A stretch of 38,450 nt of DNA from positions 1-38,450 of the forward strand of contig RFIB01000100.1 in the NCBI GenBank assembly GCA_003695625.1, in the 5' to 3' direction. The notes beneath the pieces were generated by a model. It was not told the DNA's origin and searched no databases. It was given only the letters and a program-made list of their open reading frames with translations. Source of the stretch: Acidobacteriota bacterium (GTDB lineage Bacteria; Acidobacteriota; Polarisedimenticolia; J045). Made by a program: the position numbers and the translations under genes. Within the stretch, counting starts at the first letter, position 1. Each line of letters starts with the position of its first letter. Below are positions 20,078 to 38,450 of the stretch, piece after piece.

Positions 20078-21154
20078 ATGGAGATCGCCCTCTGCGGCCT
20101 GGGCCGCGCCGGAAAGACGACGCTGTGGTCGATCCTGACCGGGCGCGAGGTGCCGCCCGGGGCAAAGCCGGAAACGCGCCGCGGCGTCGCCCGGGTCCCC
20201 GATCCGCGCCTCGATCGGCTGACCGCGCTGTTCGAGCCGAAGAAGCACACGCCGGCGACGGTGACCTACGTCGACGTGCTGGCCCTCGAACGCGGGACCG
20301 GCCGGACGGACAACCCGGTGCTCGCCGAGCTGCGCCCGGCCGACGCACTGATGCTCGTGCTGCGCGCGTTCGACGACCCGGCCGACCCTCACCCCGAGGG
20401 CTCGATCGATCCGGCACGCGACCTCGAGCTGATGGAGACCGAGTTCCTGCTCGCCGACCTGGCCGTGGCCCAGCGCAGGATCGAGCGGCTCGACGCGCTG
20501 ATCCCCAAGACCAACCGCCCCGAGGACCGCGCCGAGCGCGAGCTGATGCACAAGGTCGTCGCCTCCCTCGAGTCGGAGCAGCCGCTGCGCGAGGCGGAGT
20601 TCACGGCAGACGAGCGCAAGGCGCTGCGCGGATTCGCGTTCCTGACCGCCAAGCCGCTGCTCGTCGCGGTCAATCTCGGGGAGGACGACACGACGAAGAT
20701 CGGCGCCCCGCCGGCCGAGCTGGGCCTCGGCGCGCTCGAGGGCCGGTCACAGGTCGACGTCGTCGCGCTGTCGGCACGGATCGAGGAGGAGATCGCCGCG
20801 CTCTCGCCCGAGGACGCCGAGGCGTTCCGCCGCGAGCTGGGCATCGCCGAACCCGCGCTCGACCGGCTGATTCGCGCCAGCTACCGGCTGCTCGGGCTGA
20901 TCTCGTTCTTCACCGTCGGCAAGGACGAGTGCCGCGCGTGGACGATCCGCGAAGGCACCGACGCGCGGACGGCCGCCGGGACGATCCACACCGACCTCGA
21001 GCGCGGGTTCATCCGGGCCGAGGTGATCGAATGGGACCGGCTGCTCGAGGCCGGCTCGCTCGCCGCGGCGCGCGAGCGGGGGTGGCTGCGGCTCGAGGGG
21101 CGCGACTACGTCGTCCGCGACGGCGACGTGCTGCACGTGCGGCACGCGTCCTGA
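20078..21154 (+). CDS. YchF-like P-loop NTPase with C-terminal TGS/DUF933 domain
   Basis: N-terminal P-loop LCGLGRAGKTTLW; VAVNLGED in the position of the YchF NxxE motif; C-term SFFTVGKDECRAWTIREGTDARTAAGTIHTDLERGFIRAEVIEWDRLL. Confidence 0.87.
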   Translation: MEIALCGLGRAGKTTLWSILTGREVPPGAKPETRRGVARVPDPRLDRLTALFEPKKHTPATVTYVDVLALERGTGRTDNPVLAELRPADALMLVLRAFDDPADPHPEGSIDPARDLELMETEFLLADLAVAQRRIERLDALIPKTNRPEDRAERELMHKVVASLESEQPLREAEFTADERKALRGFAFLTAKPLLVAVNLGEDDTTKIGAPPAELGLGALEGRSQVDVVALSARIEEEIAALSPEDAEAFRRELGIAEPALDRLIRASYRLLGLISFFTVGKDECRAWTIREGTDARTAAGTIHTDLERGFIRAEVIEWDRLLEAGSLAAARERGWLRLEGRDYVVRDGDVLHVRHAS

Positions 21155-21315: not shown

Positions 21316-22248
21316 ATGACGACGGTCGAGCTCGCCGCCCAGCCGGCCGGGGCGCCACGTGTGCCGTTCCGTACGCGGCTGTTCCGTGTCGTGCACCGGA
21401 TGTTCGCGACAGTCCTGTTCGGGTTGCCCGTGCTCGTCATTGCGTGGGGGCTGCCCTACTACACGGCCCCGCTGGCCGAGCGCGTGCGCCATCCGGCCCA
21501 TCGCGTGCTCAACCCGGCCGGGGACATCGGCCAGGCGTTCGGCGTGCTGGCGTTCGCGCTGTTCCTGTTCCTGTGGCTCTACCCGCTGCGCAAGCGTGTC
21601 GGCCGGGCCCCGTGGCTCGGCCCGGTCCGCGGCTGGCTCGACGTGCACATCGTCGCCGGGCTGGCGGTCCCGCTGATCGGCGCGGTCCATGCGACGTTCC
21701 GGTTCCAGGGCGTCGTCGGCCTCGGCTACGCGGCGATGCTGGTCGTCGCGCTGTCGGGGGTCGTCGGCCGCTACCTCTACGTGCGGATTCCTCGCGGAGT
21801 GAGCGGACTGGCGGCGTCGCGGGAGGAGATCGCCCGCCTGCGGGACGCGATGCTCGCGGAGCTCGCGGGACGCACGGGAATGTCCGCAGACGAGCTGTCG
21901 CGGGCGCTGATCGTCAGCGAGCCGGTCCCGCCCAGGCTCGGGATCGTCGCGACCTTCACCCGGCTGATCCGCGACGACCTGCGCCGCCGGCGGGCCGCCC
22001 GCAGGCTCGTGCGCGAGTGGCGGCGATCCGGCGCGGGCAGCCGCGCCGAGCGCGACGCCGCGCGGAGCGTTCTCCGCCTCGCCCGCCGGCAGATGGCGCT
22101 CGCGCAGCAGATCCGGATGCTCGAGGCGACGCAGCGCGTCTTCGGCTACTGGCATGCCGCACACCTCCCGGTCGCGATCACCGCGATGATCGCCGTGCTG
22201 ATCCACGTCGCGGTCGTCGTTTCCCTCGGGGTCACCTGGTTCTACTGA
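21316..22248 (+). CDS. Multi-pass membrane protein with intramembrane histidines (putative b-type heme / quinone-interacting subunit)
   Basis: About 5 TM segments; LDVHIVAGLAVPLIGAVHATF and YWHAAHLPVAITAMIAVLIHVAVVV carry His residues spaced as in b-cytochromes; SGVVGRYLYVRIPR motif. First gene of the operon with the Fe-S flavoprotein and multiheme cytochrome. Confidence 0.7.
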   Translation: MTTVELAAQPAGAPRVPFRTRLFRVVHRMFATVLFGLPVLVIAWGLPYYTAPLAERVRHPAHRVLNPAGDIGQAFGVLAFALFLFLWLYPLRKRVGRAPWLGPVRGWLDVHIVAGLAVPLIGAVHATFRFQGVVGLGYAAMLVVALSGVVGRYLYVRIPRGVSGLAASREEIARLRDAMLAELAGRTGMSADELSRALIVSEPVPPRLGIVATFTRLIRDDLRRRRAARRLVREWRRSGAGSRAERDAARSVLRLARRQMALAQQIRMLEATQRVFGYWHAAHLPVAITAMIAVLIHVAVVVSLGVTWFY

Positions 22249-22309
22249 CGGTCCGGTGGTACCGGCGCGCCCAGCCGGCTTCCATGCGTTCGACGGGAGA
22301 GACCGATCG

Positions 22310-23755
22310 ATGGAGATGCTGCTGACCACGGCCGGCTTCCTGGCGATCACGGCGCTCGCCGTGCTGTGGCATCTGCGACGCACCGGCCCGCCCGCGGCGG
22401 CGGCCAGCGCACCGACGGGGGAGCCCTGCCCCCGCTGCAGCACGCCGATCGTGCGCGGTGCGACGTTCTGTCCGGGCTGCGGCGTTCCGGTGCAGGTCTG
22501 GGACGTCGTGCGGGCCCCGACGCGGGACCCTGCGACCGCCGGCGCGGACGACGGCGCAGCGAAGCACGCCGTGGTGCGCGCGGATGCGTGTGTCGGCTGC
22601 GGCACGTGCGTCGACGCCTGCCCGGAGGACGGCGCGATCCGCCTCGAGGGCAAGCTGGCGGTCGTCGACCAGCAGAAGTGCGTCGTCCACGGTGCCTGCG
22701 TGAGCGCCTGCCCCGTCGGCGCGATCGTGATCACCACCGGCGAGGCGGTCCAGCGCGTCGAGGCGCCGGAGATCGGCGACGGCTTCGAGTCCAACGTGCC
22801 GGGCGTGTACATCGTCGGCGAGCTCGGTGGCCGCGGCCTGATCAAGAACGCGATCAACGAGGGCAAGATTGCCGTCGAGCACATCGCGGGCCGCATCGCG
22901 CAGTCGCCGCGCCCGGACGAACCGGACGTCCACGACATCGTGATCGTCGGGTCGGGTCCCGCCGGCCTGAGCGCCGCCCTCGAGGCCCGGCGGCAGAAGC
23001 TGTCCGCCGTGGTGCTCGAGCAGGGTTCCCTGGCCGAGAGCATCCGCAAGTATCCGCGCCGCAAGCTGCTGCTCGCCGAGCCGGTCCGGATCCCGCTCTA
23101 CGGCGACCTGTGGGTCGCCGACGCCTCCAAGGAGACCCTGCTCGAGGTGTGGGAGACGATCGTCGCCAACTCGGGCATCACGCTCGAGACGCACTGCCGG
23201 GTCGAGAACGTCGCGCGTCACGGCGACCTGTTCGAGGTGCGCGCGGGCGAGCGTGCCTTTCGCGGGCGGTTCGTCGTGCTTGCGATGGGCCGCCGCGGCA
23301 CGCCGCGCAAGCTCGGCGTTCCGGGCGAAGAGCTCGACAAGGTGTTCTACGACGTGGTCGAGATGGACATGTTCCGCGGCCGGCGCGTGCTCGTCGTCGG
23401 CGGCGGGGACAGCGCCGTCGAGTCGGCGCTCGGGGCGGCCAACCAGGAGGGTGCGACGGTCACGCTGAGCTACCGCGGCGAGCGGATCACGCGCGCCAAG
23501 CCGCGCAACATCGAGAAGCTCGAACGGGCCGTCGCCGAAGGGCGCATCGAGCTGCTCTGCCCGAGCCAGGTGGTCCGAATCCTGCCCGACTCGGTCGAGC
23601 TCCGCGTCGGAGGCGCGACCCGGACGATCCCCAACGACGACGTCGTGATCCGCATCGGCGGCGAGGCCCCGTACGCGTTTCTCGAGCGGATCGGCGTGCG
23701 GATCGTCACCAAGGACGTCCCGCTGGCCACGGAGCTCGAGGGTGTCGGTGCCTGA
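22310..23755 (+). CDS. Membrane-anchored zinc-ribbon / 2x[4Fe-4S] ferredoxin / FAD-NAD(P) oxidoreductase
   Basis: N-term TM (MLLTTAGFLAITALAVLW), CPRCSTPIVRGATFCPGCG, CVGCGTCVDACP and CVVHGACVSACP clusters, DIVIVGSGPAGLSAALEA FAD fold, VLVVGGGDSAVESAL NAD(P) fold. Confidence 0.9.
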   Translation: MEMLLTTAGFLAITALAVLWHLRRTGPPAAAASAPTGEPCPRCSTPIVRGATFCPGCGVPVQVWDVVRAPTRDPATAGADDGAAKHAVVRADACVGCGTCVDACPEDGAIRLEGKLAVVDQQKCVVHGACVSACPVGAIVITTGEAVQRVEAPEIGDGFESNVPGVYIVGELGGRGLIKNAINEGKIAVEHIAGRIAQSPRPDEPDVHDIVIVGSGPAGLSAALEARRQKLSAVVLEQGSLAESIRKYPRRKLLLAEPVRIPLYGDLWVADASKETLLEVWETIVANSGITLETHCRVENVARHGDLFEVRAGERAFRGRFVVLAMGRRGTPRKLGVPGEELDKVFYDVVEMDMFRGRRVLVVGGGDSAVESALGAANQEGATVTLSYRGERITRAKPRNIEKLERAVAEGRIELLCPSQVVRILPDSVELRVGGATRTIPNDDVVIRIGGEAPYAFLERIGVRIVTKDVPLATELEGVGA

Positions 23756-25841
23756 CGCGCTGCTTCCCGGCCGCCGGGCCGCCCTGACGACGTTCCTGCT
23801 GCTGCTCGCGCTCGCCGGCGCAGGGGCGGCGCACGGCCAGGTGTCCCCCGGGCCGCTGTCCGCCCCGCATGCGGAGCTCGAGGGCAACCGCAACTGCACG
23901 AAGTGCCACGGCGGCGGCGAGGTCGGACAGGACCGCCGCTGCCTCGAGTGCCACCGCGGCATCGCGTCGCTGGTCGAGCGGCGGCGCGGGCTGCACGGAC
24001 TCGAGGGCCGCACGCGGTGCGGCCACTGCCACCCCGAGCATGCCGGCGTCGACTTCGAGCTCGTCGACTGGGGCGTGCCGGGCCGCGAGAAGTTCGACCA
24101 TGGACGCACCGGCTGGCCGCTCGAGCAGAAGCACGCCGCGGCCGCCTGTGACGCCTGTCACCGTCCCGACCGCATCGCCGATCCGGCCCATGCCCTGGAG
24201 CCGAAGCCCGAGGCCCTGGCCCACGTCGGCCTCGACCCGCGCTGCACCACATGCCACGAGGACGCCCACCGCGGCGCGCTCGGCGACGACTGCGCCCGTT
24301 GTCACGACGCGCAGGCGTTCCGTCCGGCGCGCAACTTCGACCACGCGAAGACGGCGTTTCCGCTCACCGGGCGCCACGTCAAGGTCCGCTGTGACGACTG
24401 TCACCTGGCCGACCGGCTGCGCCCGGCGCGCGACGCGCAAGGCCGGCCGGTCCCGGTCTACAAGCCGGTCCCGCACGCCTCGTGCGCGGACTGCCACCGG
24501 GACGTGCACCGCGGGCGGCTCGGGACGGACTGCGCCCGCTGCCATGTCACGGACGGGTTCCGCGTCATCCGGCGCGGCGCCTTCGACCACTCGCGGACCC
24601 GGTTCCCGCTGCGCGGCGCCCACGCCCGGACGAAGTGCGCGAAGTGCCACGGCGAGGGCGAGCGCCGCGTCGCCGCTCCGCGGTTCGACGCGTGCGCGAT
24701 CTGCCACCGCGATCCGCACGACGGCAAGGCGACGATCGCCGGGCGCGTGGCCCACGACTGCATCGTCTGCCACGACGAGCGCGCCTTCAAGCCGTCGACG
24801 TTCACCGTCCGTGACCACGCGAAGACCGGCTATCCGCTCGAGGGGGCCCACGCCCGCACCGCGTGCGCGGCGTGCCACAGGCCCGCCGTGTCGCCCGCGG
24901 GTGCGCCGCGCGCCCCCGGATCGGACGTCAGGTTCCGGATGGACCACGCGCGCTGCACCGACTGCCACGAGGATGCGCATGGCGGACAGCTCGCGAGCGA
25001 CGGCCGGCCGGCACCCGACTGCGCCGAGTGCCACGACGTCGCCGCATTCCGGCCGTCGCGCTTCGGCCGCGCGGAGCACGCCCGCCTCCGGCTGCCGCTC
25101 GAGGGGCGGCATGCCGAGATCGAATGCCGCGCCTGCCACGGTCCGGACCGCCGGGGTCTGCCCGCGCTGCCGGGCCGCGACGTGCTGGGCCGCGCGGGCG
25201 TCGCCGTCCGGCTCGACGACGCGCGCTGCGCCTCGTGCCACGCCGATCCGCACGACGGCCGGCTGACACCCACGGGCACCGACTGCGCGGCCTGCCACGA
25301 CGCCTCGACGTTCCGCCCGTCCCGCTACGACTCCGAGCGCCACCGCGAGGCGCGCTTCCCGCTCGAGCAGGCCCACCGCACGGTCCCGTGCGTGCTGTGC
25401 CACCGCGAGCTCGAGAACCGCGCCCGGCCGAAGAGCACGCTCGTCGCCGCACCGGGCCGGCCCGCGGGAGGCCTGACGTTCGCGGTTGCGAAGCAGGAGT
25501 GCCGCGACTGCCACGACACGCCCCACGGCAGCCAGTTCGACACGCGGGAGGGAGGCGCCGCCTGCTCGACCTGCCACGACCAGGGTGCGTTCCGGCCCGC
25601 GAGCCGGTTCGACCACGACCGGGACGCCCGGTTTGCACTGGGCAAGGCGCACCGAAAGGTGGCCTGCGCCGAGTGCCACAAGGCTCCGGCCGAAGGCCGG
25701 CCGGTCGTCTACCGCCCGCTGGACGGCCGCTGCCGCGCGTGCCACGGCCCGGGGCGCGGCGCGCCCGCGCTCCCCGACGACGCGGAGGGCGCGGACGCGC
25801 GGAGCGGCCGCGGTCAGAAACGCCAGCTCAGCGTCAGGTAG
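23742..25841 (+). CDS. Multiheme c-type cytochrome, 23 CXXCH motifs, tandem tri-heme modules
   Basis: GTG start overlapping the upstream stop by 14 nt; signal peptide AALTTFLLLLALAGAGAAHGQ; manual count of 23 CXXCH; repeated module CxxCHxDxHxGxLGxDCxxCHxxxxFRPxxFDHxxTxFPLxGxHxxxxCxxCH. Confidence 0.93.
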   Translation: MSVPDALLPGRRAALTTFLLLLALAGAGAAHGQVSPGPLSAPHAELEGNRNCTKCHGGGEVGQDRRCLECHRGIASLVERRRGLHGLEGRTRCGHCHPEHAGVDFELVDWGVPGREKFDHGRTGWPLEQKHAAAACDACHRPDRIADPAHALEPKPEALAHVGLDPRCTTCHEDAHRGALGDDCARCHDAQAFRPARNFDHAKTAFPLTGRHVKVRCDDCHLADRLRPARDAQGRPVPVYKPVPHASCADCHRDVHRGRLGTDCARCHVTDGFRVIRRGAFDHSRTRFPLRGAHARTKCAKCHGEGERRVAAPRFDACAICHRDPHDGKATIAGRVAHDCIVCHDERAFKPSTFTVRDHAKTGYPLEGAHARTACAACHRPAVSPAGAPRAPGSDVRFRMDHARCTDCHEDAHGGQLASDGRPAPDCAECHDVAAFRPSRFGRAEHARLRLPLEGRHAEIECRACHGPDRRGLPALPGRDVLGRAGVAVRLDDARCASCHADPHDGRLTPTGTDCAACHDASTFRPSRYDSERHREARFPLEQAHRTVPCVLCHRELENRARPKSTLVAAPGRPAGGLTFAVAKQECRDCHDTPHGSQFDTREGGAACSTCHDQGAFRPASRFDHDRDARFALGKAHRKVACAECHKAPAEGRPVVYRPLDGRCRACHGPGRGAPALPDDAEGADARSGRGQKRQLSVR

Positions 25842-27433
25842 ACCTGGTCGTACTCCTGGCCTTCACCCGTCGATCGCTCGGCGTCGAGAAGCAGGTAGAT
25901 CGAGCGCGTGACGAGCAGGTCGATGTCGAAGCCGTACCACGGCAGGCTGCGCGGCTCCCCGACACCGTCGACCGGCTCGTCGTCGCGTCGGCCGGCCTCG
26001 AGGCCGACCCGCAGCCGCTCGCCGAACGGCACGTCGACACCCAGCACGTGGAGCCAGCCGTCGTACAGGGCGTTCGTGTAGCGCGTCGAGCGCGTGCGCA
26101 GCCCGAGCCGGGCCGCCGTCAGGCGCTCGAGCCGGGTCGTCAGCGTCCAGCTGTCGGAACTTCCCGCGGCGCCTCCGTTCGCGCCGCGGAAGCGCAGTCC
26201 GACACGAAAGCGCTCGAACGGGCGGACGTTGACCCCGGCCCAGTAGCCCTGGCGGCTGCTGTCGTCGAACTCGGTCTCCGGCGTCGTGCGGTCGCGATAC
26301 AGCCGCACGTTCTGGCGGTCGTCCCAGCCCGCGTCGACCACGATCCGGTCCGACAGCCTGTATCGCCCGAAGACGAACGTCGACGTCGGTTCGAGCGTGC
26401 TCTGGCCCGAAGCCGCGCGCCAGCCGCGGTTGATGTCGATCTCCTGGATCAGCGAGACGAACAGCCGCTGCGTCCGGTAGCGGCCCTGGAGGTACAGGAA
26501 CTCGCGGTTGATCTCCCCGCCGACGTACGAGCCGATCACCCCCGCGGTGCCCTCCCACCCGCGACGCGGGTCGCGCTCCGAGCGCGCCTGCAGGTACGCG
26601 CCGTACTGCCGCGTCCCGGTCGACACGGACATCGTGGCGGGATCGGGTTCGGAGCCGACGAAGGCGCCGGCCCCCCAGCGCGGCCGCTGGTACTCGGCCA
26701 GCGCGCCGTCGAACAGGCTGATGCCGGCCAGTGCCTGGGAGAACTGGCGTCCGACGGAGACCCGCCACGGCGTGCCCGCGGGATACCACTCGACGGACGC
26801 GCGATAGACGCGCGTGCGATTGACGGTCTCGTCCGTTGCGTCCCGGTACGTGCGGCGCACGCGCGTGTCGAGATGCACGCCGAGGCCGCTGCCGCCGACG
26901 TCGCTGCCGTCGAGGCGCACGGTCAGGGCCGGCTGCGAGAATCCGCCGCCGGTGTCGGCGCGGTCACGGACCGCCAGCCAGGCGAGGCCGACCCGCCCGC
27001 GCAGACCCGCCTCGCGCAGGCGTTCGCGCAACGGCGTGCGTGGCGCACGGGGCGGCGGCGGAGCCGGCGGGGCCGGCTCCGGCGGGGCGACGACGGGCGT
27101 GACGCTCTTCCGGGCGACGAGGCGGACCTCGTCGCCGATCGCGACGCGCTCGCCGACGGGGGCGCCGTCCTGGGGCACCAGCACCGCACGGTGTCCCGAG
27201 ACCTCGCGCACCTCGAGCACCAGCACCACGTGGCCGTCCCGCACGACGTCCACCCGGTCGCCGACGACGACGCCGGACCGGGCGCCGGCGTCGATGTAGA
27301 CCGAGCTGCCGCTGACGTACGTCACGCGGGCCCGGTAGGTGGCGAGCTGTTCCTCCGCGCGCGACGGCGCGCCAGGCGCGAGCGCCAGCGCGAGCGCGAG
27401 CGCGAGCGCGACGGACCTCCCCCGGCCCGTCAC
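25814..27433 (-). CDS. Outer-membrane beta-barrel protein (porin-like) with N-terminal soluble domain and Pro-rich linker
   Basis: GTG start overlapping the upstream cytochrome stop (GTGA); signal VALALALALALAPGAPSRA; alternating-hydrophobicity beta strands; terminal aromatic ...QVYLTLSWRF* typical of OMPs; linker VVAPPEPAPPAPPPPRAP. Confidence 0.82.
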   Translation of the reverse strand: MTGRGRSVALALALALALAPGAPSRAEEQLATYRARVTYVSGSSVYIDAGARSGVVVGDRVDVVRDGHVVLVLEVREVSGHRAVLVPQDGAPVGERVAIGDEVRLVARKSVTPVVAPPEPAPPAPPPPRAPRTPLRERLREAGLRGRVGLAWLAVRDRADTGGGFSQPALTVRLDGSDVGGSGLGVHLDTRVRRTYRDATDETVNRTRVYRASVEWYPAGTPWRVSVGRQFSQALAGISLFDGALAEYQRPRWGAGAFVGSEPDPATMSVSTGTRQYGAYLQARSERDPRRGWEGTAGVIGSYVGGEINREFLYLQGRYRTQRLFVSLIQEIDINRGWRAASGQSTLEPTSTFVFGRYRLSDRIVVDAGWDDRQNVRLYRDRTTPETEFDDSSRQGYWAGVNVRPFERFRVGLRFRGANGGAAGSSDSWTLTTRLERLTAARLGLRTRSTRYTNALYDGWLHVLGVDVPFGERLRVGLEAGRRDDEPVDGVGEPRSLPWYGFDIDLLVTRSIYLLLDAERSTGEGQEYDQVYLTLSWRF

Positions 27434-29190
27434 GGCTTGCGCCCGTCCGGATGGCAGGAGTAGCAGGCCTGGCTGTCGTACCGGTAGCCCGCGACGTCCT
27501 TGTGCTGGTTGTCGGTCTTGTTGCGGTCGGAGTGCGGGTGGCAGCCGAAGCAGGAGAACACCGCGAAGTTGTTGGGCTGCACGTGGCAGTCGCTGCAGCG
27601 ATCCCACTTGCCGCGGTGCTTGCCGGAGTAGATCGGGAACCACGGGTCGTGGTCGAAGTTCGCCCCGGCCCAGCCGCTCGTCGTGTGGCACTGGGTGCAG
27701 TCGGTCGGGAAGCCCGCCGCGGCGTGGTTCGGGTCGGTCGTCCGCTCGTAGTCGTCCCGGTGGCACGCGTAGCAGTCCGTCGGCGTGCCGGCGTAGACGC
27801 CGCCGGCATGGCACGCGGTGCAGTCCAGCGCACGGTGGGCGCCGGTCAGCGGGAAGTTCGTCGCGTCGTGGTCGAAAGTCGCTCCGGCCCAGCTGGAGGT
27901 GTCATGGCACGCGACGCAGTCGGTCGGGAACCCCGCCGTGACGTGGTTCGGGTCGGTCGTCCGCTCGTAGTCGCCCTGGTGGCACGCGTAGCAGTCCGTC
28001 GGCGTGCCGGCGTAGACGCCGCCGGCGTGGCACGCGGTGCAGTCCAGCGCACGGTGGGAGCCGGTCAGCGGGAAGTTCGTCGCGTCGTGGTCGAAGTTCG
28101 CTCCGCCCCAGCCGCTCGTCGTGTGGCACTGGGCACAGTCGGTCGGGAACCCCGCCGTGACGTGGTTCGGGTCGGTCGTCCGCTCGTAGTCGCCCTGGTG
28201 GCACGCGTAGCAGTCCGTCGGCGTGCCGGTGTAGACGCCGCCGACATGGCAGCGGGTGCAGTCCACCGCGAGATGGGCGCCGGTCAGCGGGAAGTCCGTC
28301 AGCGCGTGGTCGAAGTCGGCATCCTTCCAGCCGGTCGGACCGTGACACAGGGCGCAGTCGGTCGGGAATCCCGCCGCACCGTGGTCGGGGTTCGTCGTCC
28401 GCTCGTAGTCGGCCTGGTGGCACGAGAAGCAGTCGACGCTCGTGCCGCTGAACGTGTCGCCGACATGGCACTGCGCGCAGTCGAGCCCGCGGTGGGCACC
28501 GACGAGCGGGAAACCGGTCAGCGCGTGGTCGAAGCGGGCGGTCGTCCAGCCGATCGGCGTGTGGCAGGCCCCGCAGTCGGTCGGGAAGCCGCTGTTCACG
28601 TGGTCCGGATCGGTCGTCGCCCGGTAGTCGTCGATGTGGCACGTCTCGCATTCCGGTGCCAGCCCGACCCAGCGACGCGCGCCCGCCGGCTGGGGCGTAT
28701 GACACGCCTCGCAGTCGGCCGCGAGATGGCTGCCGACCAGCGGAAAGCGCGTCTCGGTGTGCATCTGCACGAAGTTGCGCCGGTCGATGAACGAGCGCGG
28801 CACGTGGCAGCGCGCGCAGTCCGGTCCGAGCTCGCCGAGGTGCACGTCCTGGTGACAGGCGTTGCAGTCGGTCGGCGCGTCGGCGAAGACCAGCGACGCG
28901 TGACACGCCCGGCAGTCCGCGGTGCGGTGCGCCCCGACCAGTTCGAAGCGCGACAGCCGCCCGTGGTCGAACTCGGGACTGATCCGCGCCGGCTTCCAGC
29001 CGTCGTCGCCGTGGCACAGCGCGCAGTCCTCGATGAAGTCGCCGTGCGGGTAGTCCTCGTCGTCGTCCTGCGCCGCGGAGATCCGGCCCGCGGCCGAAAG
29101 ACAGCACGCGATCACGGCGAGCGCGACGACCGGACCGCGGAACGCGACGACGCGGCCGCACCCGGTTTCCCGGGTCCGTTTCGCTGACAT
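27430..29190 (-). CDS. Multiheme c-type cytochrome, 22 CXXCH motifs
   Basis: MSAKRTRETGCGRVVAFRGPVVALAVIACCLSAAGRISA signal; manual count of 22 CXXCH; C-terminal CFGCHPHSDRNKTDNQHKDVAGYRYDSQACYSCHPDGRKP. Confidence 0.93.
   Translation of the reverse strand: MSAKRTRETGCGRVVAFRGPVVALAVIACCLSAAGRISAAQDDDEDYPHGDFIEDCALCHGDDGWKPARISPEFDHGRLSRFELVGAHRTADCRACHASLVFADAPTDCNACHQDVHLGELGPDCARCHVPRSFIDRRNFVQMHTETRFPLVGSHLAADCEACHTPQPAGARRWVGLAPECETCHIDDYRATTDPDHVNSGFPTDCGACHTPIGWTTARFDHALTGFPLVGAHRGLDCAQCHVGDTFSGTSVDCFSCHQADYERTTNPDHGAAGFPTDCALCHGPTGWKDADFDHALTDFPLTGAHLAVDCTRCHVGGVYTGTPTDCYACHQGDYERTTDPNHVTAGFPTDCAQCHTTSGWGGANFDHDATNFPLTGSHRALDCTACHAGGVYAGTPTDCYACHQGDYERTTDPNHVTAGFPTDCVACHDTSSWAGATFDHDATNFPLTGAHRALDCTACHAGGVYAGTPTDCYACHRDDYERTTDPNHAAAGFPTDCTQCHTTSGWAGANFDHDPWFPIYSGKHRGKWDRCSDCHVQPNNFAVFSCFGCHPHSDRNKTDNQHKDVAGYRYDSQACYSCHPDGRKP
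27583..28650 (-). repeat. 219-bp (73-aa) tri-heme tandem repeats within the 22-heme cytochrome (about 5 units, last partial)
   Basis: gcagtccgt landmark recurs at 27772, 27991 and 28210 (219-bp spacing); units around 27781-27999 and 28000-28218 are nearly identical at the DNA level; more diverged units continue to about 28650. Confidence 0.9.
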
Positions 29191-29424
29191 GGGAAGCCCT
29201 CTTGGTTCGCCGCGCGGCGCCGGGCATGCGCCACGCGTTCCCTCCATCCCTCGTCCCGCGGGGGTCCGGACCGCGGCGAGCGCCTCGGGGACCGGTCCGG
29301 CCGAACCCTTCGGGACGACAGGATTATCCCCCGGGGTAACGTGGCGTGTCGAGCCGGTCCGGGCAAGCGGGGGCCGGCCGTGGCGGCCGCACGCGGCCCG
29401 GCGGGACGGCCGCGACCGCCCGCA

Positions 29425-30816
29425 CTAGTCCGCGACGATCCGCCGCACTGCGGAGACGACGATCTCGTCCTCGCCTTCGAGCAGGGTCCGCGGATCGAGC
29501 AGCACGCGGCCCGCCTCGACGCGCGCGACGACCGGCGGCTCGTGCCCGCGAAGCCGGCGGGCCAGCTCCTGCTCGTCGAGCCCGTCGACGCCGAGCGCGA
29601 CGAGCCGCGTGGGCAGCGCCTGCTCGGGTGCCGCCCCGCCGCCGACGCGGCCTTCCCCGTCGATCACCGCCGCCCGGACGCGGTTGCCGAGCGCCAGGAG
29701 CGCGTCCGCGAGCCGGACGGCGCGCGTCTCGAGCTGTTCGGGCGACGCGGCGAGCATGCGCGCCACCGGCGGGCCCTGCGCCCCGGGGTCGGGGACGAGC
29801 CACGCGCGGCAGGTCCACGACAGCGCGGCGAGCGTCAGCTTGTCGCAGCGCAGCGCGCGCGCGAGCGGATTGCGCGCGCAGCGGGCGACCAGCTCCCGCC
29901 GTCCGACGAGGATCCCCGCCTGCGGTCCGCCGAGCAGCTTGTCGCCGGAAAAGCAGACCAGGTCGGCTCCGTCGGCGAGCAGCTGCTCGACCGACGGTTC
30001 GCTGTCCGGCCCGGGTGCGTCGCGATACAGGCGTCCGCAGCCCTGGTCGACGACGAGCGGCAGTCCGTGGTCCGCGGCGATCGGAGCCAGCTCGCGCACG
30101 CCGACCTGCCGCGTGAACCCGACGATCCGGTAGTTGCTCGGCCACACCTTGAGCAGCAGCGCGACGTCACGGCCGCAGACGCGTGCGTAGTCGTCGGGAT
30201 GCGTCCGGTTGGTCGTGCCGACCTCGACCAGGCGCGCCCCGGAGCGCTCGAGGATCTCCGGCACGCGGAAGCTGCCGCCGATCTCGACCAGCTCCCCGCG
30301 GCTGATCGCCACGCCGCGGCCGAGCGCGAGCGTGTTGAGCGCCAGCAGCAGCGCCGCGGCGTTGTTGTTCACCGCGAGCACGCCGTGGTCAGGAAACAGC
30401 AGCTCGAGCCACGGCGCGACGTGGGCCTGCCGGCTGCCGCGCCGTCCCGAGCCGAGGTCGAACTCGAGATCCGAGTAGCAGGCGGCGACCCGTGCGACGT
30501 GCTCCGCCGCCGCCGGCGCCAGCGGAGCGCGCCCGAGGTTGGTGTGCACGACCACGCCGGTGGCGTTGACGACGCGCCGCGGCCCCGGCCGGTCGAGCCG
30601 CTCGAGCCGCGCCCGCACGGCGCGGGCGAGTTCCTCGTCGGCGGGCGGAGGCGCGCCGTCCGCGACCCGGCGCCGCGCGCGCTCGAGCTCCGCGCGGGCC
30701 GCGTGGACGATCGCGCGATGCGCCCAGCGCTCCGCCAGCTCCCGGACCTCCGGCCGCGCGAGCAGCCGGTCGACACCGGGCAGGCCGGCGCGGCGGTCCC
30801 CGGCGGCGCGGCTCAT
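29425..30816 (-). CDS. selA: L-seryl-tRNA(Sec) selenium transferase
   Basis: RRVVNATGVVVHTNLGRAPL, YSDLEFDLGSGRRGSRQAHV, AVNNNAAALLLAL, LVCFSGDKLLGGPQAGILVGR (PLP Lys); ATGA overlap with the upstream sulfatase stop. Confidence 0.95.
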   Translation of the reverse strand: MSRAAGDRRAGLPGVDRLLARPEVRELAERWAHRAIVHAARAELERARRRVADGAPPPADEELARAVRARLERLDRPGPRRVVNATGVVVHTNLGRAPLAPAAAEHVARVAACYSDLEFDLGSGRRGSRQAHVAPWLELLFPDHGVLAVNNNAAALLLALNTLALGRGVAISRGELVEIGGSFRVPEILERSGARLVEVGTTNRTHPDDYARVCGRDVALLLKVWPSNYRIVGFTRQVGVRELAPIAADHGLPLVVDQGCGRLYRDAPGPDSEPSVEQLLADGADLVCFSGDKLLGGPQAGILVGRRELVARCARNPLARALRCDKLTLAALSWTCRAWLVPDPGAQGPPVARMLAASPEQLETRAVRLADALLALGNRVRAAVIDGEGRVGGGAAPEQALPTRLVALGVDGLDEQELARRLRGHEPPVVARVEAGRVLLDPRTLLEGEDEIVVSAVRRIVAD

Positions 30817-32870
30817 CGGGCGTTCTCCAGCGTCCGGGCGGTGCGCTCGAGGAACGGATCGCCCGGCGCCCGGCCCCGCAGCGTGGCGAGCAGGCGCCGC
30901 GCCTCGTCGTCGCGCCCCTGCTCGCGCAGCAGGGCCAGCGCCCCCTCGACCGCGTCGCGGCGCGTCGGTGCGAGCGCGAGGGCCTGGCGGAACGCGGCGA
31001 GCGCGGCGTCCGCGTTGCCGCGGGCGCGCTCGACGCGACCGAGCAGCTCCCACCCCTCGGCGTCGTCGGGACGGCGCTCGAGGTACCGCCCGAGGCGCGC
31101 CGCGGCCTCGTCCTCGAGACCGGCGCCGAGTTCGGCCGCGGCCAGCCGCGTCTCGAGCCCGACGTATCCCGGCAGCAGACCGGACAGGCGGAGCCACAGG
31201 TTGCGCGCCTCGAGGTGGCGGCCCCGCTCCTCGAGGAACGTCGCGTAGAGCCGGTAGCCGAGATAGAACGTCGGCTGGACCTCGATCAGCCGGCGGAACA
31301 CCTGCTCGGTGCCGGGATCGTCGCCGAGCGCCTGGCGTGCCCGCGCCAGCCGGAGCAGGAACTGCGGATTGTCGGGATCCCGCTCGAGCAGGCGCTCGAC
31401 GAGCCGGGCGGCGGCCTCGGCCTGTCCGGCGAGCAGCAGCTCGCGCGTGCGCTGGAACCGGTCGTAGTCGTCGATCGCCTCGCGCGGCGAGCGCCCTTCA
31501 CGCGCGGGCAGCGGGTCGTCGTCGCTGCCGGCCTCGCCGCGATCGGCCCCGCCGCCGCCGGCGACGTAGCCGAGCGACTCGAGCCGGGCGATCGTCTCCG
31601 GATCGGTCCCGCCGCCGAAGCCCGCCGCGGCCGCGAGCCGCGTCGTGTCGACGATCCGCCGCGCGATCTCGCGCAGGGTCGCGCCGAGCCGCGCGACGTC
31701 GTCCGGCCGCGCGCCCGAGAGGTCGCGTCCCTCGCCCGGATCGTCGGCGAGGTCGTAGAGTTCCGGGCGGGTCCCCTCGATCAGCTTGAGGTCCGCCTCG
31801 CGCAGCGCGTAGAGCGCCGACCAGCCGAACTCCTCGTGCGGGTAGAGTGTCTCGGCGTAGACCGGACCGGCGGCGCCTTCGGCCAGCAGGTCGCGTCCGT
31901 GCAGGCCGGCCGGCGGCTCGAGCCCGAGCAGCCCCAGCGCCGTCGGCAGCACGTCGACGAGGCTGGCCGGCCCCTCGATCACGGTCCCGGGAGCGATCCG
32001 TCCGGGCGCGCGCAGCAGGAACGGGACGTGCAGCGCCTCCTCGTAGAGCAGCAGTCCGTGTTCCTGCTCGCCGTGGGTGCCGAGCCCCTCGCCGTGGTCG
32101 GCGATCGCGATCACGACCGTGCGGTCCGCGATCCCCAGCTCGTCGAGCGCATCGAGCAGGCGGCCGACCATCGCGTCGGTGAACTCGATCTCCCCCGAGT
32201 ACGGATCGCCCCGGTGACGCCGCGCGTACTCGGCCGGCGGCGCCCACGGCGTGTGCGGATCGTACAGATGCACCCAGAGCAGGAACGGCTCGTCGGCGTG
32301 CCCGCGCAGCCAGGACAGCGCCCGCGCGACGACCTCGTCCCCGCGCCGCGTGTTGCGCCGGCGTCCGTCGGGCGCGTGGCCGTAGTCGTCGTCGTACAGC
32401 TCGAAGCCCTGCGCGAGGCCGAACATGCCGGCCGTCGTGAACGACGCCGAGACGGCCGCCGTGCGCCGGCCGTGCCGGCGGACGATCTCGGCCAGCGTGG
32501 TCACGTCGTCCGGCAGCCGGAAGCGCGCGTTGTTGCGCACCCCGTGGCCCGGCGGGTACAGGCCGGTCAGGATCGACGCGTGCGCCGGCGTGGTCAGCGG
32601 AACGGTGCTCCAGGCGCGACGCACGAGCGCCCCCTCGCGCGCGAGCCGTTCGAGCGCGGGGGTCGATGCGGGCGAGTCCGGCGCGTACGCGCTGACATGG
32701 TCGGCCCGCGTCGTGTCGAGCGTCACGAGCAGCACCGAGTCGAGCCCGCGCGGGCGCGACGCGCCGCCGCAGCCTGCGGCGGCGATCGCGAGCAGGATGA
32801 GTGCGGCGCCGCGCGCGGCGCGCGGGCCGGCCGGGCGGCGCGCGGCCGGAATTCCGTTCTCGTTCGGCAT
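30813..32870 (-). CDS. Lipoprotein sulfatase-like hydrolase with C-terminal TPR region
   Basis: Lipobox AAAGC; VLLVTLDTTRADHVSAY, STVPLTTPAHASILTGLYPPGHGVRNN, VVIAIADHGEGLGTHGE; C-terminal TPR-like repeats. Confidence 0.88.
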   Translation of the reverse strand: MPNENGIPAARRPAGPRAARGAALILLAIAAAGCGGASRPRGLDSVLLVTLDTTRADHVSAYAPDSPASTPALERLAREGALVRRAWSTVPLTTPAHASILTGLYPPGHGVRNNARFRLPDDVTTLAEIVRRHGRRTAAVSASFTTAGMFGLAQGFELYDDDYGHAPDGRRRNTRRGDEVVARALSWLRGHADEPFLLWVHLYDPHTPWAPPAEYARRHRGDPYSGEIEFTDAMVGRLLDALDELGIADRTVVIAIADHGEGLGTHGEQEHGLLLYEEALHVPFLLRAPGRIAPGTVIEGPASLVDVLPTALGLLGLEPPAGLHGRDLLAEGAAGPVYAETLYPHEEFGWSALYALREADLKLIEGTRPELYDLADDPGEGRDLSGARPDDVARLGATLREIARRIVDTTRLAAAAGFGGGTDPETIARLESLGYVAGGGGADRGEAGSDDDPLPAREGRSPREAIDDYDRFQRTRELLLAGQAEAAARLVERLLERDPDNPQFLLRLARARQALGDDPGTEQVFRRLIEVQPTFYLGYRLYATFLEERGRHLEARNLWLRLSGLLPGYVGLETRLAAAELGAGLEDEAAARLGRYLERRPDDAEGWELLGRVERARGNADAALAAFRQALALAPTRRDAVEGALALLREQGRDDEARRLLATLRGRAPGDPFLERTARTLENAR

Positions 32871-37666: not shown

Positions 37667-38450
37667 TCACTCCTCCTCATCAGGAGGCTCATAGCGATAA
37701 ACGGTGTCCGCGATCTCCTGCAGCTCCTCGATTACGTTGCGGGGAGAGTTGATGAGCGTAACCGGCGTGTCGACGCCGCCAGCTTCTAGGACATCTTCAC
37801 AGAACGTTGCGCAGTTGTTGCCGGTGAGAGAATACGGTTCGCCTTGACCGGCCTCGGTAGTTGCCTGCAGCCCTTCGGCGTACTCAAGCATCGACGCGAA
37901 GTCCGCGTCTTGGAAGTCGGCCCCCTCGACCGCGCCTCGTTGTCCGAATTTTTTCGACAAGGCCTGCATGAGATTGTCCATCGACTCCTGGGTTGGACGC
38001 TTGTCCTCGCCCATGACCACGTCCGGAATTGTATCGGTTTGGACCAAGCCATGCTCTTCTGCGTCGTATCGACCGTACTCAAAGTACCTCGTAAGCCCGG
38101 AGTCAGGGTCAATGAGCACAACCCCCGAGTGCCCGAGTCGTCGACGCCCGACAGGCGTCTTTACCATGTAGTCTGGATACGTCACGATGAGAGCGGCGCG
38201 ACCGTCGGGATCAATGAAGCCAATGGGATTGTTGAACGTGTAGGTGTAGCGATTCCAGGATTGTGGCGATCCTGGTCGAGCGCTGCTGGCGAGAGGATCG
38301 ACACTCAGGAACCGCCCGAGACTGCTCCCGCAATACCTCGCCACCATATAGTCCAGCCCGAGCACCTCATCCCGCTCGTGTCCCGTGAACTTCATCCGCC
38401 CGGCAGCAGGTCCCGCCAGCTCGACCCCGAACGGCGTGAACTTCACCTCC
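37667..38450 (-). CDS. RHS repeat-associated protein, C-terminal part with variable toxin-like domain (partial, continues past right edge)
   Basis: Core RHS end: FTGHERDEVLGLDYMVARYCGSSLGRFLSVDPL...SWNRYTYTFNNPIGFIDPDG, followed by a variable C-terminal domain (RAALIVTYPDYMV...GHSGVVLID...LTGNNCATFCEDVLEAGG). Confidence 0.9.
   Translation of the reverse strand, partial: EVKFTPFGVELAGPAAGRMKFTGHERDEVLGLDYMVARYCGSSLGRFLSVDPLASSARPGSPQSWNRYTYTFNNPIGFIDPDGRAALIVTYPDYMVKTPVGRRRLGHSGVVLIDPDSGLTRYFEYGRYDAEEHGLVQTDTIPDVVMGEDKRPTQESMDNLMQALSKKFGQRGAVEGADFQDADFASMLEYAEGLQATTEAGQGEPYSLTGNNCATFCEDVLEAGGVDTPVTLINSPRNVIEELQEIADTVYRYEPPDEEE

Follow-up and report, generated by a model that had tools for sequence, protein, structure and literature searches.

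A candidate transenvelope electron conduit encoded by a five-gene set in Acidobacteriota and other uncultured bacteria

We analyzed a stretch of 38,450 nucleotides (hereafter the window; contig RFIB01000100.1) from an Acidobacteriota MAG that is assembled in 392 contigs. It encodes five clustered genes, A to E, which together with associated sequence features are as follows:

21316..22248, + strand: gene A, a 310-aa inner-membrane protein with five transmembrane (TM) segments, candidate diheme b-type cytochrome
22310..23755, + strand: gene B, with a TM anchor, a Zn ribbon, two [4Fe-4S] sites and FAD- and NAD(P)-binding domains
23742..25841, + strand: gene C, an exported cytochrome with 23 CXXCH motifs in c7/c3-like units
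25814..27433, - strand: gene E, an outer-membrane beta-barrel with 22 predicted strands and a C-terminal WRF
27430..29190, - strand: gene D, an exported cytochrome with 22 CXXCH motifs, made of a head, triheme repeats and a tail
27646..28630, - strand: a tandem array of a 219-bp (73-aa) unit corresponding to the triheme modules of gene D (TRF, 4.5 copies, 82% matches)
29323..29352, - strand: a sigma-70-like promoter candidate upstream of D-E (TCGACA-18-GATAAT, 10/12)

Genes A, B (best start the ATG at 22310) and C form one operon on the + strand, and D and E form a second on the - strand that faces it, with the 3' ends of C and E overlapping by 28 nt (25814-25841). Gene E begins with a GTG, in a 4-nt overlap with the stop of D (gcc GTGA), and its product ends in SWRF, in agreement with the translational coupling and the outer-membrane protein ending in WRF that had been claimed in a first-pass annotation of this DNA. 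The promoter candidate ahead of D-E is a consensus match only, and the single such match in 8.4 kb, where 0.1 would be expected. The 45 heme-binding motifs reported earlier for C and D were likewise recovered by counting, against 0.5 expected by chance (0.2 and 0.3 CXXCH in shuffled proteins of the same composition as C and D, respectively), and the host genome also encodes cytochrome c maturation genes. Elsewhere in the window, a gene for a YchF/Obg-type GTPase-like protein (20078-21154, + strand; C-terminal domain PF06071) lies just upstream of A and is not conserved with the cassette; a gene for the selenocysteine synthase SelA (29425-31197, - strand) lies directly past the cassette; and an ORF matching the TseH-like family (PF25218, 79 bits) is found close to the window end (37667-38446, - strand).

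The protein encoded by gene A displays five hydrophobic peaks and eight histidines, four of which, H111, H125, H283 and H297, are invariant in all homologues covering these positions, near and distant (down to 24% identity). They form two pairs with a separation of 14 residues, one in TM3 (H111/H125) and the other in TM5 (H283/H297). Two TM helices that each hold a pair of histidines spaced by about 13-14 residues are the pattern of diheme b cytochromes, and A is accordingly a candidate for binding two b hemes, via H111/H283 and H125/H297. These four residues with their 14/14 spacing lend support to the membrane b-heme step postulated in the first-pass annotation; its characterization of A as a His-rich membrane protein is right as to the membrane but hardly as to the composition (8 histidines in 310 residues, though four are invariant). 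Based on the positive-inside rule, the long basic loop that connects TM4 to TM5 is taken to be cytoplasmic. Searches with A against Pfam recovered no family over its cut-off, including PF01292, PF01794 and PF14358; members of the A family yield weak matches to cytochrome b561 (PF01292; 8 of 22 members, best E 0.0012), DUF4405 and ferric reductase. A fold search against the PDB with the predicted model of A (moderate confidence, pLDDT 84) returned no significant match; hence, A is classed by its histidine pattern and not by its fold. Distant relatives of A and B also lie beside a decaheme cytochrome at two loci (L061 7546-12983 and L072 10045-15663). At L061, the one locus to which these domain assignments apply, a fusion of FAD, cNMP-binding and Fe-S domains is followed by A and then by a decaheme cytochrome with an FHA domain. 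The A-B module thus seems to be reused with other cytochromes, possibly under cyclic-nucleotide control.

The TM, Zn-ribbon, 2x[4Fe-4S] and FAD parts of B are those given in the first-pass annotation for the Fe-S flavoprotein of the + strand operon. Its Zn ribbon is formed by C40, C43, C54 and C57, while the Fe-S cysteines and the glycine motifs for FAD and NAD(P) are invariant across homologues. Positive residues follow its N-terminal TM anchor, which suggests that the body of the protein is cytoplasmic. The FAD- and NAD(P)-binding fold is of the YpdA/TrxB type (best PDB match 7a7b, E 5e-45) and is thus common to B, YpdA/Bdr and TrxB; however, B differs from YpdA/Bdr in having two additional [4Fe-4S] sites and a membrane anchor. 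Moreover, the catalytic cysteine of the YpdA GGGPCG motif is an invariant alanine in all 19 of 19 B proteins, and the score of B against TIGR04018 (165.5 bits) falls below the cut-off of 339.9. We therefore reject a role for B as a YpdA-like bacillithiol disulfide reductase, and infer from the cysteine-to-alanine replacement that it acts as a redox relay.

The two cytochromes, C and D, each consist of c7/c3-like units but show contrasting modes of conservation. The number of heme motifs in C is nearly fixed among its relatives, mostly 23 or 20. In D, a constant head with seven motifs (spacings 36-16-16-35-21-25) and a constant tail flank a middle region with a variable count of triheme units of 73 or 71 aa, from 1 to 14 or more among homologues; the window version has the 7-heme head, four 73-aa triheme repeats and the tail. 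The motif totals in 14 complete copies are 13, 15, 16, 19, 19, 22, 25, 31, 34, 40, 40, 40, 40 and 43, all but one of which fit 13+3k, and one cut copy has at least 52; contigs of many MAGs break off within D, and short reads may therefore understate the number of repeats. All 71 of 71 triheme units of standard length have six invariant histidines, of which three belong to CXXCH motifs and three are free, precisely the number of ligands for three bis-His hemes. D further matches Cytochrome_C7 (PF14522) in six stretches (E 7e-29), as befits a tandem triheme-domain protein, whereas its sequence has no detectable match in the PDB. The fixed ends and variable middle of D would fit a wire that docks at both ends and has a changeable reach, and from its sequence a reach outside the cell is possible. 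At one locus (L006 15045-16312) the D repeats have a 438-bp period, equal to two triheme units, and from this period the array may grow by six-heme pairs. Ten other contigs of the organism's own genome (C388, C349, C129, C189, C235, C169, C4, C108, C257 and C161) also have c7-type matches, which in most cases score above or close to the family cut-off, and the organism is rich in multiheme cytochromes.

The single-chain, heme-free model of E, built from an 11-sequence alignment, is a 22-strand barrel of moderate confidence (pLDDT 76, pTM 0.60), with the barrel strands in residues 144-538, a small N-terminal beta domain at 34-106 and a phenylalanine as the C-terminal aromatic residue. Sequence searches with E found no match in Pfam at E 0.01, none in NCBIfam and none to any solved barrel. 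A Foldseek search with the model recovered generic large barrels alone (PapC, MOMP, AlgE), and these matches, being generic, are not evidence for any function. At loci that hold both genes, D and E are adjacent and usually overlap. In one family (L053 9240-10022, L054 2575-3477 and L056 10922-11758) an extra gene for a secreted-looking protein of 260-300 aa lies between E and A; this protein has no Pfam match and is perhaps a sixth component.

The convergent arrangement of the window raises the question of whether its two halves, A-B-C and D-E, belong together. Scanning 85,462 genomes with B gave 26 loci, which belong to Gemmatimonadota, Eisenbacteria, Acidobacteriota and two unclassified MAGs and in which the order is A-B-C-D-E on a single strand, with gaps that are mostly small or overlaps, to the limits of the contigs. 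No further flanking gene was widely kept when we looked for a wider conserved cluster around the relatives' loci; the conserved unit thus ends at A-B-C-D-E. This set is common to uncultured bacteria of at least three phyla. Of 149 genomes from the host's own phylum, 15 encode A, 13 encode a strong B (over 300 bits) and 10 encode E. Strong B occurs with A in 13 of 13 genomes against 1.3 expected (P 6e-17), and E with A in 9 of 10 against 1.0 expected (P 6e-10), both P values being calculated with shared ancestry ignored. In more distant relatives the order varies by family (C-D-E-A-B, A-C-D-E-B or D-E-A-C-B) and the set is retained. One genome (G071) has A-B on one contig and C-D-E on another; where A-C-D-E occurs without B next to it, B is encoded elsewhere in the genome, and such unlinked B proteins are devoid of the TM/Zn-ribbon part. 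The shuffled orders, the split in G071 and the unlinked B argue against the mere inheritance of one block.

On comparative grounds, therefore, the two halves belong together as one system, and the possibility that they are unrelated neighbors is ruled out by the single operon of the relatives and the genome-wide co-occurrence. The idea of the first-pass annotation that the five genes constitute the set for one path gains from the same evidence, namely the one operon in relatives and the co-occurrence of A, B and E; it had named beforehand, as a reason to abandon this idea, operons that never co-occur in homologous loci, and the opposite was found. At the same time, D-E pairs can stand alone, as in one genome (G122) and as an extra copy in another (G145), and these lone pairs, along with the sometimes unlinked B, indicate that the path may be modular and not one complex. 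The distribution is patchy, with 11 of 41 genomes of the class positive and A present in 14 of 151 genomes of a Gemmatimonadota sample. A tree of B groups the Gemmatimonadota but does not resolve the order of the phyla, and transfer between phyla is possible.

The two convergent operons, which the first-pass annotation had described correctly for the window, are hence no feature of the system as such: this layout, peculiar to this genome or its assembly, arose from what is normally one operon, by local rearrangement or by misassembly. That it reflects MAG misassembly and not a true inversion is possible, if on balance doubtful. The scan relatives with A-B-C-D-E have all the genes on one strand, the genome is in 392 contigs, and the D repeat array breaks many contigs; against this, the C/E junction is compact with its 28-nt overlap, a promoter-like site precedes D, and G071 likewise has A-B and C-D-E as split loci. 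Either origin concerns the layout alone and is compatible with the functional reading developed below.

An outer-membrane barrel encoded with multiheme cytochromes is the trait of porin-cytochrome conduits, and in the Mtr conduit of Shewanella (MtrCAB) and the Pcc and Ext conduits of Geobacter (OmbB-OmaB-OmcB, ExtABCD/EFG/HIJKL) a barrel gene likewise lies beside genes for multiheme c-type cytochromes, with electron transfer across the outer membrane as the proposed role in these as here. The 22 strands predicted for E fall within the range of the Pcc porins (18-22; PMC4245776), while MtrB has 26 (PMC7198977). Membership in the Mtr family is rejected: the MtrB/PioB barrel family PF11854 has no match in E or anywhere in the host genome, C and D score 42.8 and 23.3 bits against the MtrA/DmsE model TIGR03508 (cut-off 192.2), and they have 23 and 22 motifs rather than being decaheme. 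Similarly, C reaches only about 16 bits with the ExtN/ExtO models (cut-off 200), which excludes it from those families. The mismatch with the textbook Mtr or Ext gene sets noted at first pass thus stands, in that there is no Mtr barrel match and the Ext matches are sub-threshold. In functional type, then, this would be a porin-cytochrome conduit set apart from Mtr and ExtN/ExtO by the Pfam and NCBIfam models searched. Unlike these known conduits, the cassette includes an inner-membrane donor module, A-B; its cytochromes also have 13 to 52 or more heme motifs, whereas the periplasmic cytochromes of Pcc have 5 to 14. A lipobox pattern is absent from the C and D homologues bar a single match in the window D, and hence, in contrast to Pcc (OmbB-OmaB-OmcB), no surface lipoprotein cytochrome is evident.

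Individual parts nevertheless have counterparts elsewhere. The Geobacter ExtHIJKLMNOPQS selenite/tellurite cluster combines genes for a porin-like protein and multiheme cytochromes with one for a b-type cytochrome (PMC5877670); its ExtO/ExtP are Rieske and bc-type, and the window set differs also in having no rhodanese gene. In CbcL a c-type part with 3 to 23 motifs is joined to a HydC/FdnI-like diheme b part (PMC6295460), and this combination, seen in the inner-membrane quinol oxidases CbcL/MtrH/MtoC, would recur in A + C. Here, however, the parts are separate genes, A has five TM segments with a large loop in the cytoplasm, and the set gains an Fe-S flavoprotein of NAD(P)H type, B. The triheme array of D resembles Geobacter GSU1996, in which c7-like triheme domains follow one another linearly along a single chain (PMC10138318). 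Nonetheless, the domains of GSU1996 number four and each contains a single His-Met heme, while in D the units number 1 to 14 or more, with three spare invariant histidines apiece, and D has in addition a fixed head and tail and the coupled barrel E. No description of the five-gene set was found in the literature searched; a homology-independent survey (PMC11475568) reports 440 gene clusters without a match in FeGenie models, which implies that such clusters await description, and its supplement may list relatives.

Taken together, the parts, their conservation, heme-ligand signatures, co-occurrence, membrane placement and linkage, as read from the sequences, make it probable that the products of all five genes form a single transenvelope electron conduit running from NAD(P)H (or ferredoxin) via B, A, C and D/E to the outside. 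We infer the electron donor, the order and outward direction of transfer, the placement of D inside E or on it, and the terminal acceptor as follows. B, anchored on the inner face of the cytoplasmic membrane, would oxidize NAD(P)H (or ferredoxin) by means of its FAD and pass electrons via the two [4Fe-4S] clusters to A, which would move them across the inner membrane through two stacked b hemes, one held by H111/H283 toward the cytoplasm and the other by H125/H297 toward the periplasm. C, as a 20-23-heme periplasmic cytochrome, would bridge the periplasm, and the modular triheme wire of variable length, D, together with the barrel E, would carry electrons through the outer membrane to an extracellular acceptor, perhaps even beyond that membrane. 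Electrons that leave the negative-inside cytoplasm are aided by the membrane potential, while uptake to NAD(P)+ is opposed by both the redox and the membrane potential; we therefore prefer outward flow. Such a route would bypass the quinone pool, unlike the CymA, CbcL and ImcH routes.

The chief rival reading is that A + C is a split CbcL-like quinol oxidase or quinone reductase that draws from or feeds menaquinol, with B as an accessory feeding or sensing the same quinone pool and the D-E path unchanged. The joining of a many-heme c-type part with a diheme b part in CbcL is much like C + A (PMC6295460), A has the weak matches to prokaryotic cytochrome b561 noted above, and B is unlinked in some genomes. 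Yet A accompanies strong B in all 13 of 13 genomes and B lies between A and C in the scan loci, pointing to an NAD(P)H/Fe-S entry that belongs to the set; we accordingly regard this rival as unlikely, though it deserves to be kept in view. We deem it improbable that C and D are periplasmic electron stores and E an ordinary porin, with no through-membrane wire. Such a capacitor role has been proposed for very-many-heme cytochromes (PMC11495043) and for the periplasmic nanowire cytochromes of Geobacter, such as GSU1996 (PMC10138318), and would suit the lipobox-free C and most D; however, the adjacency and usual overlap of D and E and the stand-alone D-E pairs elsewhere suggest a D-E unit at the outer membrane. 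Least probable is an inward or two-way path from Fe(II), another cell or a mineral via D/E and C to the quinone pool or B: conduits for both directions exist, as in Mto/Pio versus Mtr (PMC6295460), and nothing in the sequence fixes the direction, but with B as the inner terminus the redox and membrane potentials would oppose uptake to NAD(P)+ or ferredoxin.

Under the preferred reading of an outward conduit, it is quite possible, if somewhat less likely than not, that this is a new, independently evolved extracellular electron transfer system, with a non-homologous barrel, a quinone-bypassing FAD/Fe-S/diheme-b entry and a wire length tuned by triheme modules. Characterized conduits come from few lineages, mostly Shewanella, Geobacter and their relatives, and their proposed inner-membrane entry is by quinol oxidases (PMC6295460); hence, entry from pyridine nucleotides would be the main functional difference from known conduits. 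The cassette marks a separate conduit family that standard Mtr markers would miss, and its gene A occurs in roughly one in ten of the genomes sampled from two large phyla whose members are mostly uncultured. It raises two testable questions: whether Gram-negative bacteria can discharge NAD(P)H to the exterior by a direct, quinone-free path, and what effect the length of a cytochrome wire has, for which D offers a natural series of 13 to at least 52 motifs with constant ends.
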